From an uncultured Acidimicrobiaceae bacterium (GTDB taxonomy: Bacteria > Actinomycetota > Acidimicrobiia > Acidimicrobiales > Aldehydirespiratoraceae), in the NCBI GenBank assembly GCA_913041415.1, contig CAJWHS010000023.1, forward strand, positions 1-33,250: a DNA stretch of 33,250 nucleotides, read 5' to 3'. Of the stretch, positions 15,547-19,768 are shown in pieces. Made by a program: the position numbers and the translations under genes. Every line of letters begins with the position of its first letter. Within the stretch, counting starts at the first letter, position 1. The notes below the pieces were generated by a model. That model was given only the letters and a program-made list of their open reading frames with translations, made no database searches and was not told where the DNA came from.

Positions 15547-18500
15547 TCAGACGAGGATTGAATCCGGACCGAATGCCACCCGAAGTTCAGCCACCACCCC
15601 GTTTGCGTTGTTGACCGCGAAATCATCCGGAAGGCGCAGCACCTGACGATCGGAGAGATGCAACTCGACCGGGGCATCACCCGGATGCGCGCTCAGAATC
15701 AGCTTCAGCTCATCGATGCGCTCGGGCTTCTGATTCTCAGCTGACAGCCGCAGCCGGACGGGCGCGTTGTCGCTCAGATCATCGACAATCTCGATGTCCT
15801 GAGCGAACATCTTCGGCAGATCACCGTCGTTCTCGGTGCGTCCCCGGACCAGGACGATCGCATCGTCCTGGAGCTTCGGGCCGTGCTCTTGCATCGTGCG
15901 GGGGAAGACCATGACCTCAACCGAACCCTCGAGGTCCTCGAGCTCGAACACCGCCATCAGATCGCCCTTGCGGGTCCACTTGCGCTGGAGATTGGTGATG
16001 ACCCCGCCAACCTTCACGATCGCTCCGTCGGGGGTGTCGGCGAGTCCGGCCACACCGGTGTCGGCCTTGCGCCGAACCTGCGCCTCGAAACCAAGAAGGG
16101 GATGGTCGGAGATGTAGAGGCCGAGCATCTCTTTTTCGTTCGCAAGGCGGGGCATCTTGTCGAATTCGACATCAGGAATCGACGGTCGTTCATCGAAGGA
16201 GGGGCCATCATCGAGTTCGCCGAACAGCGACATGACACCCATGTCGTGTTCTTTCCGGCGCTGCACCGTCAGATCGATGATCTGCTCGTACACCTGCAGC
16301 AGACCCTTCCGGGGATGGCCGAGACAGTCGAACGCACCACCCTTGATCAACGACTCGATCGTGCGCTTGTTGAGCGCCTCGATCTCGACCCGCTCGACGA
16401 AATCGATGAACGACTCGAAGGGACCATCCTCATTCCGGGCAGCGAGAATCTTCACGACGATGCCCTCGCCGACGTTTCGGATCGCCGACATTCCGAAGAT
16501 GATGCTGCCCGGGGTGACGCCCCGTTGCTCACTCCCTTCGGCGTAGGGACCACCGTCCCATTTGGGGTTGGGCACCGGCGTGAAGTCCATCTCCGAACGG
16601 TTGATGTCAGGCACCTCGACGGCGATGCCCATGAGGCGACACTCGTTGAGATATACCGCTGCGGACTCGAGCTTGCTCTTTACCGACGTGAGCAGCGCCG
16701 AAAGATACTCAACGGGATGGTTCGCCTTCAGGTAGGCAATTTGGTACGCGACATAGCCGTAGCCATACGAGTGCGACTTGTTGAAGGCGTAATCGGCGAA
16801 CTGAGCAATGATGTCAAACATCTCGACGGCGAGCGAGTGGTCGTAGCCCTGCTCGACGACGCCGGCGGTGAACTTCTCCCGCTCCTTCTCCATCGCCTCG
16901 CGGATCTTCTTGCCCATCGCCTTGCGGAGGGAGTCCGCCTCGGCGAGTGAGTAGCCCGCGAACTTCTGCGCCATTCGCATGACGCTCTCCTGATAGATCA
17001 TCAGGCCGTAGGTGTCGCCGAGCAGTTCCTCAGCGTCGGAGTGGATGAACTCGACCGGCTTGCGCCCGTTCTTGCGGTCGGCGTAGTCGTTGTGCATGTT
17101 CGCCGCCATCGGGCCGGGCCGATAGAGAGCGACGAGAGCGGCAACATCGTCGAACGAGTCTGGGGCGAGCGAGCGGATCAGGGCCCGCATGGGTGAGGAC
17201 TCGAGCTGGAAAACCCCAATGGTATCGCCCCGCTTGAGCAGTTCGAAGGTGGGTTGATCGTCAAGCTCGATGGCGTCGATGTCGAGCTCGATACCCCTCT
17301 TGTCCTTGACCCAAGTCAGACAGTCGGAAATGACGTCGAGGTTTCGCAGGCCCAGGAAGTCCATCTTGAGCAACCCGAGATCCTCGACGCCGTGCATCTC
17401 GTACTGGGTGACGACCGGCGCCTCCTCGATGGGCTTGCCGGACTCGGGCTTGCGTTGGATCGGCAGGTATTCGGTAAGCGGATCGTTGGTGATCACCACC
17501 GCGGCGGCGTGGATGCCGTCCTGACGGCGCAGACCCTCGAGGCCCTTGGCGACATCGACAACCCTGGCGACATCGGCGTCGGTGTTGACCATGTCGCGAA
17601 GCTCGCCGGCGGACTTGTAGCCGTCGAGGTACTTCGGGTGCTCTTCGAAGCAGTACTTCAGCGGGGTGTCCCTGCCCATGATCAGCGGCGGCATCGCCTT
17701 TGCGACCTTGTCGCCAACGGAGTACGGGTAGCCGAGCACGCGAGCTGCGTCACGTACGGCAGCTCGGGCCTTGATTTGGCTGAAGGTGACGATCTGGGCG
17801 ACACAGTCACGGCCGTACATGTCGGCGGCGTAGCGGATCATGTTGTCGCGGTATCGCGTGTCGAAGTCCATGTCGATGTCGGGCATCGACAAGCGCGACG
17901 GGTTGAGAAAGCGCTCGAAGAGTAGATCGTACTTGATCGGGTCGAGATCAGTGATCCAGAGCGTGTAGGCCACCGCACAACCAGCGGCGGAGCCTCGGCC
18001 GGGCCCGACCCGGATGTCGTTGTCGCGGGCGTACCGGATGAGATCCCAGGTGATGAGGAAGTAAGCCGAGAACCCCATGTTGTCGATGACGCTTAGCTCA
18101 TAGTCGAGACGCTCGACGACCTCATCGCTGAGGTTGGCGCCCCAACGCTTGTGGGCACCCTCGTAGGTGAGGTGGCGGAGATAATCGGTGTCGCTCGAGA
18201 ACCCCTCGGGAAGCGGGAACTCCGGCAGCTGCGGTTTGCCGAACTCGATCTCGACACCGCAGCGCTCGGCGATCCACAGCGTGTTGTCGCACGCCTCCGG
18301 GACCTCGCTGAACAGCCGACGCATCTCGCCGGCGGTCTTGATGTAGTGGCCGTCGCCGTGGAACTTGAAGCGGTCGGTATCGCTGAGCAGTGATCCGGTC
18401 TGCACGCACAGCAGGGCGTCGTGGGCCTCGGCATTGTGTTGATGGGTGTAGTGCGAGTCGTTCGTGGCGAGGATCGGTGCCTTGATCTTGCGAGCGATCT

Positions 18501-19116
18501 CGAGCAGCTGCGGGTTGGTGGTGCGCTGCTCGGGAATGCCTTGATCTTGCAGCTCAATGAAGAAGTTGTTGCGCCCGAAGATGTCCTGGAAACGAGCGGC
18601 GTGCTCGAGCGCAGTATCGAGTCGCCCCTGCATCAGCGACTGGAGGACGTGTCCCCCGAGACAACCCGACGTGGCGATGATGCCCTCGGCGTGCTGCTCC
18701 ATCAGCTCCCAGTCGGCCCGGGGCTTGTAGTGATAGCCCTCCATATAGGCCTTTGAGGACAACTGGATCAGGTTCTGGTACCCGATATTGTTCTCCGCCA
18801 TGAGGATGGCGTGGTAGTAGAGCTTCTTGCCTCCACCGGTATCGCCGCCGGAGTCGTCGGCTCTGCCTCGACGACTGGGACGCTCGTGGCGGCTTTCGTG
18901 CGCAAGGTAGATCTCGGTGCCGATGATCGGCTTGATGCCCTGATCCTTGCAGCCCCGGTAGAAGTCGAGGACGCCGTACATATTGCCGTGATCGGTGATC
19001 GCCATGGCGGGCTGGCCGTCGGCGGAGGCAGCAGCAATCGCCTCGTCGAGGCGCGACGCGCCGTCGAGCATCGAATACTCGGTGTGGACATGCAGATGAG
19101 CGAACGAATCCGCCAT
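15547..19116 (-). CDS. dnaE: DNA polymerase III alpha subunit DnaE (DnaE1 type)
   Basis: Replicative polymerase, 1189 residues, full length. The N-terminal PHP domain opens with FAHLHVHTEYSMLDG and keeps metal-binding motifs such as AITDHGNMYG and ATNDSHYTHQ, so it may be a proofreading PHP domain as in mycobacterial DnaE1. The polymerase core shows GPGRGSAAG and the catalytic PDIDMDFD, then YRPGPMAANM, FNKSHSYGYGYVAYQ and the helix-hairpin-helix region. MGVMSLFGE fits the internal beta-clamp-binding site. An OB domain (VGGVITNLQRKWTRKGDLMAVFELED) follows. ATG 19116 has GGAGGA 8 bases upstream. Nothing is overlapped by either end. It is preceded by a 133-base leader region with promoter, palindrome and DnaA-box-like repeats. 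Confidence 0.98.
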   Translation of the reverse strand: MADSFAHLHVHTEYSMLDGASRLDEAIAAASADGQPAMAITDHGNMYGVLDFYRGCKDQGIKPIIGTEIYLAHESRHERPSRRGRADDSGGDTGGGKKLYYHAILMAENNIGYQNLIQLSSKAYMEGYHYKPRADWELMEQHAEGIIATSGCLGGHVLQSLMQGRLDTALEHAARFQDIFGRNNFFIELQDQGIPEQRTTNPQLLEIARKIKAPILATNDSHYTHQHNAEAHDALLCVQTGSLLSDTDRFKFHGDGHYIKTAGEMRRLFSEVPEACDNTLWIAERCGVEIEFGKPQLPEFPLPEGFSSDTDYLRHLTYEGAHKRWGANLSDEVVERLDYELSVIDNMGFSAYFLITWDLIRYARDNDIRVGPGRGSAAGCAVAYTLWITDLDPIKYDLLFERFLNPSRLSMPDIDMDFDTRYRDNMIRYAADMYGRDCVAQIVTFSQIKARAAVRDAARVLGYPYSVGDKVAKAMPPLIMGRDTPLKYCFEEHPKYLDGYKSAGELRDMVNTDADVARVVDVAKGLEGLRRQDGIHAAAVVITNDPLTEYLPIQRKPESGKPIEEAPVVTQYEMHGVEDLGLLKMDFLGLRNLDVISDCLTWVKDKRGIELDIDAIELDDQPTFELLKRGDTIGVFQLESSPMRALIRSLAPDSFDDVAALVALYRPGPMAANMHNDYADRKNGRKPVEFIHSDAEELLGDTYGLMIYQESVMRMAQKFAGYSLAEADSLRKAMGKKIREAMEKEREKFTAGVVEQGYDHSLAVEMFDIIAQFADYAFNKSHSYGYGYVAYQIAYLKANHPVEYLSALLTSVKSKLESAAVYLNECRLMGIAVEVPDINRSEMDFTPVPNPKWDGGPYAEGSEQRGVTPGSIIFGMSAIRNVGEGIVVKILAARNEDGPFESFIDFVERVEIEALNKRTIESLIKGGAFDCLGHPRKGLLQVYEQIIDLTVQRRKEHDMGVMSLFGELDDGPSFDERPSIPDVEFDKMPRLANEKEMLGLYISDHPLLGFEAQVRRKADTGVAGLADTPDGAIVKVGGVITNLQRKWTRKGDLMAVFELEDLEGSVEVMVFPRTMQEHGPKLQDDAIVLVRGRTENDGDLPKMFAQDIEIVDDLSDNAPVRLRLSAENQKPERIDELKLILSAHPGDAPVELHLSDRQVLRLPDDFAVNNANGVVAELRVAFGPDSILV

Positions 19117-19151: not shown

Positions 19152-19181
19152 TGTGGACACCGATGTGGACGCCCTGTGGAC
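19152..19181 (-). repeat. Three DnaA-box-like repeats (TGTGGAC) in the dnaE leader
   Basis: TGTGGAC occurs on the plus strand at 19152-19158, 19164-19170 and 19175-19181. On the coding strand these read GTGTCCACA, GCGTCCACA and CCGTCCACA, differing from the actinobacterial DnaA box TTGTCCACA at one, two and two positions. They are spaced 12 and 11 bases apart, about one helical turn, so bound proteins would lie on one face. They lie 36-65 bases upstream of the dnaE ATG. DnaA binding is an inference. Confidence 0.5.
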
Positions 19182-19186
19182 GGGTT

Positions 19187-19196
19187 ACACCGGTGT
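19187..19196. promoter_or_regulatory. Palindrome ACACCGGTGT in the dnaE leader
   Basis: Perfect 10-base palindrome, nearly symmetric over 14 bases (TTACACCGGTGTGA). It sits 7 bases downstream of the TAGGTT -10 element, at or next to the predicted transcription start, a place where a dimeric repressor could act. Confidence 0.35.
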
Positions 19197-19203
19197 GATT
19201 TCG

Positions 19204-19232
19204 AACCTAACCGGCGAATCCCCGAGCCACAA
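19204..19232 (-). promoter_or_regulatory. dnaE: Predicted dnaE promoter (TTGTGG-N17-TAGGTT)
   Basis: On the minus strand TTGTGG (19232-19227) and TAGGTT (19209-19204) are separated by exactly 17 bases. The -10 hexamer is the same as the one before purL. Transcription would begin near 19197, giving a leader of about 80 bases that contains the palindrome, the TGTGGAC repeats and the Shine-Dalgarno. Confidence 0.45.
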
Positions 19233-19249: not shown

Positions 19250-19768
19250 TCAGAGATAGGTGCCGGGACGGGTGTCGGCCCCCTCACCACCCGGCCCCTC
19301 TCCCCCGCCGGAACCGATCTGACCCCGCAAGCCCTGGAGTTGCTGCTGCGCAGCCATCTGCTGCGCGAAGAGCATTGCCTGCATGCCTTGCACCAACCCC
19401 TCGAGCCAGCCGACAAGCTGCGCTTTGGCGATCTGGAGCTCGCCCGCAGTCGGTGTCTCCTCCGTGCTGAAAGGAAGAGCAAGACGATCGAGTTCCTCTC
19501 GCAGGTCGGGACTCAACGCCCCGCCGAGTTCGTTGACCGACGTCTCGTAGATGTCGCGGAGGCGATGCCGACTGGGCTCATCAAGCTCCATCGTGCGCAG
19601 CTCCTCGAGCAGCTGCTTCATCATCGCCCCGATGCGCATGACCTTGGCCGGGTGGTCCACCGTCTCGTCGACCACCTGTTCGTCGAGATGCTCGGGATCG
19701 ACAAGCTCAACTTCGGCTCGTTCGACCAGATCGGTGCGGTCGCTCGATTTGGAATGCTGCTCGGTCAC
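19250..19768 (-). CDS. bpa: Bacterial proteasome activator Bpa/PafE
   Basis: 172-residue homologue of mycobacterial Bpa (DUF2587), the ATP-independent ring activator of the 20S proteasome. The family in Mycobacterium is about 174 residues. The predicted helical core runs from VMRIGAMMKQLLEELRTMELDEPSRHRLRDIYETSVNELG and ELQIAKAQLVGWLEGLVQGMQAMLFAQQMAAQQQLQGL (a helical ring subunit). The flexible Gly-rich tail ends in RPGTYL, matching the proteasome-docking C-terminus (GQYL in Mycobacterium). This implies that the organism has a 20S proteasome elsewhere. The start is GTG at 19768 with no clear Shine-Dalgarno. It follows the phosphatase gene after 39 bases and precedes dnaE. Confidence 0.88.
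   Translation of the reverse strand: MTEQHSKSSDRTDLVERAEVELVDPEHLDEQVVDETVDHPAKVMRIGAMMKQLLEELRTMELDEPSRHRLRDIYETSVNELGGALSPDLREELDRLALPFSTEETPTAGELQIAKAQLVGWLEGLVQGMQAMLFAQQMAAQQQLQGLRGQIGSGGGEGPGGEGADTRPGTYL

Follow-up and report, generated by a model that had tools for sequence, protein, structure and literature searches.

The window analysed here (the whole stretch of 33,250 nt, positions 1 to 33,250 of contig CAJWHS010000023.1 from an uncultured Acidimicrobiaceae bacterium) carries on its minus strand a 1189-aa open reading frame for dnaE (15547-19116), encoding the DNA polymerase III alpha subunit, with Pfam DNA_pol3_alpha (1e-94), finger and PHP domains. We propose dnaE as the regulated gene of the element described below. 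Its start codon is at 19116 on the minus strand, and the gene upstream, co-directional with it (19250-19768, minus strand), encodes the bacterial proteasome activator Bpa (Pfam BPA, 1.1e-53). On the same strand the bpa-dnaE gap reads TTGTGG-N17-TAGGTT-CGA-AATCACACCGGTGTAACC-CGTCCACA-GGG-CGTCCACA-TCGG-TGTCCACA-...-GGGAGGAGAGCCGAG-ATG. An earlier note on this sequence had described a good promoter here. Both hexamers are indeed present, a -35-like TTGTGG (19227-19232, minus strand) that is kept in the closest relatives only and a -10 TAGGTT (19204-19209, minus strand) that is conserved in relatives, but a strict sigma-70 scan gave the dnaE promoter no score. Rfam returned no match.

The heptamer TGTGGAC occurs at 19152-19158, 19164-19170 and 19175-19181, with a spacing of 12 and 11 bp, beside ACACCGGTGT (19187-19196); the coordinates of the earlier note were correct throughout. 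On the dnaE strand the repeats correspond to three tandem 9-mers facing in one direction: box 1, CCGTCCACA (19175-19183), box 2, GCGTCCACA (19164-19172) and box 3, GTGTCCACA (19152-19160), all on the minus strand, separated by gaps of 2 bp (19173-19174) and 3 bp (19161-19163). Boxes 1, 2 and 3 are respectively 2, 2 and 1 bases away from TTGTCCACA, and the best copy therefore differs by a single base from the actinobacterial DnaA box (GTGTCCACA against TTGTCCACA), as had been noticed previously. All three 9-mers lie within two mismatches of TTRTCCACA, in direct orientation and 2-3 bp apart, an arrangement kept in relatives, and the genome encodes a DnaA with a box-recognition domain (G000:C29), of which the domain IV RDHTT motif, RDHTTVMHACRK, is kept. 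Taken singly, TGTGGAC is not unusual in the window, with 7 copies against 4.7 expected, a fourth copy being located at 19083 within dnaE codons; the exact triple has a single occurrence in the 2.68-Mb genome, in the dnaE leader. The neighbouring ACACCGGTGT forms the centre of an 18-bp palindrome, AATCACACCGGTGTAACC (19183-19200, minus strand), with the consensus AATnACA-N4-TGTnATT, the last base of which is the first base of the box 1 9-mer.

Conservation of the dnaE element

We examined the genomes of 61 relatives; dnaE was found in 61/61, and all of the leaders were read. The phylogenetic footprinting that the earlier note had asked for gave a positive answer, since the triple array is present at dnaE in 18 of the 61 relatives. 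A looser pattern of three TCCACA motifs at the same pitch was found at 22 places in the 61 genomes, 18 of them being the dnaE leader, compared to 1 for a reversed-pattern control. Three boxes spaced by 11 and 12 bp (11 and 11 in one genus) characterize most species of the window's genus and the genera that we call g3, g7, g8 and g10. The first two box bases vary in the closest relatives of the window, and sister genera read TTGTCCACA or, in two genomes, the E. coli form TTATCCACA; this applies in particular to box 1. When columns were compared across the 17 three-box species, identity averaged 98% in the cores of boxes 1 and 2 versus 56% in the 20 nt past box 3. In the 61 dnaE leaders the density of the RTCCACA core is 69 times that of their flanks, a factor that is approximate because the background is mostly coding. 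At least one box was found in 41/61 leaders and at least two in 35/61; the remaining 20 have no box within 110 nt. In one of the genomes, a cluster of at least four TCCACA boxes lies away from dnaE (L139, G013:C311:2590). That the repeats of the dnaE leader are DnaA boxes is thus strongly supported by their conservation across the family, by the perfect TTGTCCACA or TTATCCACA of sister genera and by gaps of 2 and 3 bp, which are those preferred in vivo in E. coli (PMC11317965).

The palindrome is no mere adjunct of the repeats; it turned out to be the more widely conserved part of the element, often occurring without DnaA boxes. With a threshold of at least 10 of the 12 fixed positions, reached by 0.03% of shuffled leaders, it was called in 49/61 dnaE leaders, just 5' of the box position. 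Among 38 leaders with a downstream box, 33 have the box core starting exactly 1 nt past the palindrome. Of the 49 palindrome-bearing leaders, 48 show a TAnnnT motif 5' of the palindrome, no more than 20 nt and usually 2-4 nt away (6% expected). The position of the -10 just upstream and the fixed offset of the boxes together place the palindrome on the predicted transcription start site. The sequence, the geometry, the conservation and the genome-wide specificity of the dnaE element are established.

Palindrome sites at other genes and in other Actinomycetota

The exact palindrome was detected at 72 places in 47 of the 61 genomes, with none for the reversed-pattern control. These sites map to dnaE (25), crgA (22: 21 upstream of the gene and 1 downstream), whiB (6), dnaA (5) and nrdA or nrdJ (4), with one each at recA, at the gene of a FliA-like sigma factor and at trpS, and 7 places to which no gene was assigned. 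The window's own genome has exact palindromes at crgA and dnaA and one-mismatch sites at whiB and recA. The crgA layout is the reverse of that at dnaE: an inverted DnaA-box pair, TTRTCCACAGCCTGTGGACAA, is followed by the palindrome and then by a promoter (TATCCT or TAGAGT beside the ATG) that is probably leaderless. A DnaA box lies within 60 bp of 17 of the 22 crgA palindromes, as compared to about 3% expected. The crgA promoter of the window's own genome (L094, G000:C12, 1442-1518) carries the inverted pair TTGTCCACAGCCTGTGGACAA and the palindrome AATTACACGGATGTGATT; crgA is followed there, on the opposite strand, by dcd and a thymidine-kinase-like gene. In the rpmH-dnaA spacer (L064, G000:C29, 8510-8527), a perfect palindrome, AATGACATGAATGTCATT, lies upstream of dnaA with a near copy adjoining it.

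At whiB and nrd, no DnaA box was found within 60 bp of the palindrome. In the whiB promoters of several genera (L098, L070, L111, L113, L114, L116, L128) the palindrome overlaps the -35/-10 region, and its right arm coincides with a TGTAAT -10 in several promoters of whiB, nrdA and nrdJ. The nrdJ promoters L119 and L125 carry separate NrdR-like boxes in addition to the palindrome. Two palindromes lie upstream of a FliA/WhiG-like sigma factor gene (L120, 2001-2060), and at the recA promoters L086 and L097 a palindrome-like site adjoins a LexA-type box, GAACAGCTGTTC, possibly by chance. Since 20/61 dnaE leaders are boxless and the whiB and nrd sites have no nearby box, palindrome and boxes are separable.

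A palindrome half with an adjacent box was searched for in 296 genomes of the class; 19 of the 20 matches lie at dnaE, and the control had none. In two of these matches (L165 and L170) the module has the opposite orientation with respect to dnaE and, like its crgA counterpart, stands ahead of a leaderless promoter. Among the matches listed in a collection-wide scan, the module is found in other Actinomycetota at nrdR-nrdJ, dnaA and crgA; the number of matches was about that expected by chance for 257 Gb, and we therefore used the gene contexts alone. A strict search for the composite in the phylum retrieved it in 5/397 genomes, this rarity being due to the palindrome-adjacent box, which is often degenerate (ATCCCCA) in Mycobacteriaceae. 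In that family (the family of genome G604; loci L304-L353), the palindrome lies within 160 nt 3' of crgA in 45/50 readable loci, as compared to 0.12% of shuffles, and a DnaA-box core is present 3' of crgA in 47/50, the boxes (TGTGGATAA repeats) coming after the palindrome. The next gene at the Gordonia and Williamsia crgA loci resembles, by eye, a homologue of Rv0010c. We take crgA of Mycobacterium tuberculosis to be Rv0011c, with which the synteny in relatives agrees.

Five DnaA-bound regions have been described in M. tuberculosis, namely oriC, Rv0010c-Rv0011c, the region upstream of dnaB (Rv0057), Rv3843c-RVnc0040 and rpmH-dnaA, and homologous DnaA regions were found in M. smegmatis by ChIP-seq (PMC7738170). 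Homoplasic clinical mutations and IS6110 insertions at Rv0010c-Rv0011c cluster in a small palindrome, where IS6110 joins at GAATC (PMC7738170). The expression of both Rv0010c and Rv0011c was unchanged in dnaA mutants (PMC7738170), and the element may therefore serve DnaA itself rather than transcription. The same locus was selected by the motif ATCAC-N4..7-GTGAT, and the HigA2 and DnaA sites coincide there (PMC11205783). The present palindrome can be read as ATCAC-N6-GTGAT, which fits this motif. Synteny and the published motif, together with 45 related genomes, suggest that the palindrome described here is the one mutated at the M. tuberculosis crgA locus.

Candidate binding proteins and alternative readings

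The palindrome is probably bound by a second, putative factor distinct from DnaA, and we compared it to the sites of known regulators. BldD, the XRE regulator of whiB and whiG in Streptomyces, has a box that shares with it the TNAC...GTNA half-sites and the whiB and sigma factor targets, with a spacing differing by one base; BldD was rejected because two genera that keep the dnaE palindrome, g3 (one genome) and g5 (five genomes), yielded no homologue. The NrdR box, a palindrome of the ACAC-N8-GTGT type, is similar in its presence at nrd promoters but differs in half-site order and spacing, and NrdR-like boxes occur separately in the same nrdJ promoters. Likewise, the LexA/SOS box (GAAC-N4-GTTC) differs from the dnaE site, and a LexA-type box stands separately beside the palindrome-like site at recA. 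WhiA, which recognizes GACAC, does not fit either, as the base before ACA varies freely. The MtrA consensus consists of direct repeats (K-T-R-A-C-C-N5-GTKAC; PMC5650626), whereas the dnaE site is an inverted repeat. An XRE-type dimer is, by its geometry, a plausible candidate; HigA2, which binds the M. tuberculosis site in vitro at the micromolar level only (PMC11205783), constitutes a hint in this direction.

The composite could be mainly a locus for the control of DnaA itself, by titration or by datA/DARS-like loading and unloading, that happens to lie in the dnaE promoter and affects dnaE only secondarily. The layout taken alone is compatible with a datA/DARS-like locus, the Mycobacteriaceae copy lies 3' of crgA, and some other actinobacterial copies sit between gene ends without an evident promoter. 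Moreover, mutations of the M. tuberculosis palindrome phenocopy dnaA mutations while the flanking genes show no dnaA-dependent change (PMC7738170). In Acidimicrobiia, however, the element stands at a fixed distance from the dnaE -10 and recurs at the crgA, whiB and nrd promoters, as an operator would, and we consider this explanation unlikely, albeit worth keeping in view. Less probable still is that the regulator of the palindrome is the main control and that the TCCACA repeats are sites for the same or another protein and not for DnaA. The palindrome is commoner than the boxes (49 versus 41 of the 61 leaders) and stands alone at whiB and nrd; against this, in many species the repeats agree with the DnaA box base for base, and they return in inverted form at crgA, a type of locus where binding of DnaA has been demonstrated in mycobacteria.

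That the palindrome is a 5' hairpin of the dnaE message might be argued from its location at the predicted transcript start and from its arms, which are able to pair in many species. Its positions 4 and 15 are nevertheless complementary in 17/49 leaders as compared to 16.8 expected, a lack of covariation between paired positions indicating that the site acts as DNA and not as RNA. The folding of the dnaE leader is also ordinary (z = -1.4), and the same palindrome lies upstream of or inside the promoters of crgA, whiB and dnaA; we disfavour this reading as very improbable. Finally, chance repeats or phylogenetic inertia would agree with the ordinary frequency of the lone heptamer in the window, but they hardly account for boxes that are invariant amid diverged flanks, for controls with zero matches, or for the recurrence of the module at unrelated genes and in another class, and can practically be set aside.

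Proposed control of dnaE by DnaA and a second factor

The reading that we favour, and consider fairly probable, is that the dnaE start site is a composite operator for DnaA and a second factor, which links the supply of Pol III alpha to DnaA and belongs to a module shared with other genes. The occupancy of dnaE by DnaA, the existence of the second factor and the sign of the regulation are what we infer. The putative dimeric factor would cover AATnACA-N4-TGTnATT from about -3 to +15, the -10 ending at about -7, and DnaA would fill the three tandem boxes downstream, from about +15 to +46. Filling would be cooperative, because the gaps of 2 and 3 bp suit DnaA-DnaA contacts; in vivo, E. coli DnaA favours box pairs separated by 2-3 bp (PMC11317965). 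As both proteins would sit on initially transcribed DNA, repression is the simplest effect, and the operator probably acts on dnaE in this way. Promoter escape or early elongation would be blocked at high levels of active DnaA, and dnaE would be switched on as DnaA activity falls after initiation, so that the amount of Pol III alpha available would keep step with the DnaA cycle. Present also at the crgA, dnaA, whiB and nrd promoters, the module would tie division, dNTP supply and initiation to one signal, and regulation of the opposite sign is conceivable at crgA, where the sites lie upstream of the promoter.

More tentatively, AATnACA-N4-TGTnATT could be a cell-cycle operator with its own putative regulator, acting together with DnaA across Actinomycetota. 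In Acidimicrobiia it would control dnaE, crgA, dnaA, whiB and the genes of ribonucleotide reductase, and at the crgA locus of M. tuberculosis it would be the palindrome in which mutations recur; we hold this broader proposal to be possible but somewhat doubtful.

Like the DnaA-regulated promoters of E. coli nrdAB and polA, B. subtilis dnaA-dnaN and Caulobacter dnaQ and dnaB (PMC8203912), that of dnaE serves a gene of DNA synthesis and contains DnaA boxes; in contrast to them, its boxes are tandem, lie inside the leader and are fused to a conserved palindrome. We came across no mention of dnaE in this review (PMC8203912). The direct repeats with gaps of 2 or 3 bp recall the E. coli double DnaA box (PMC11317965) and the low-affinity arrays of oriC, whereas dnaE has three boxes and an overlapping operator of a putative other factor. 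The Rv0010c-Rv0011c site of M. tuberculosis (PMC7738170, PMC11205783) likewise has boxes beside a palindrome of the ATCAC-N6-GTGAT form, at crgA; that site is 3' of the gene and was read as DnaA-box-like only, whereas the present element lies on the dnaE promoter and its palindrome is, by comparison, a separate site. Our searches of the open-access literature brought up no previous account of DnaA boxes at an actinobacterial dnaE. We regard the element as control of an already familiar type, in which the target, dnaE, and the widely conserved partner site are new.

How Actinobacteria link initiation to the supply of polymerase and dNTPs and to division is poorly known, and a two-part element with its targets and phylogenetic range is now defined. 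It suggests that the clinically mutated palindrome at M. tuberculosis crgA is part of a general replication regulon with a second DNA-binding protein that can be found.
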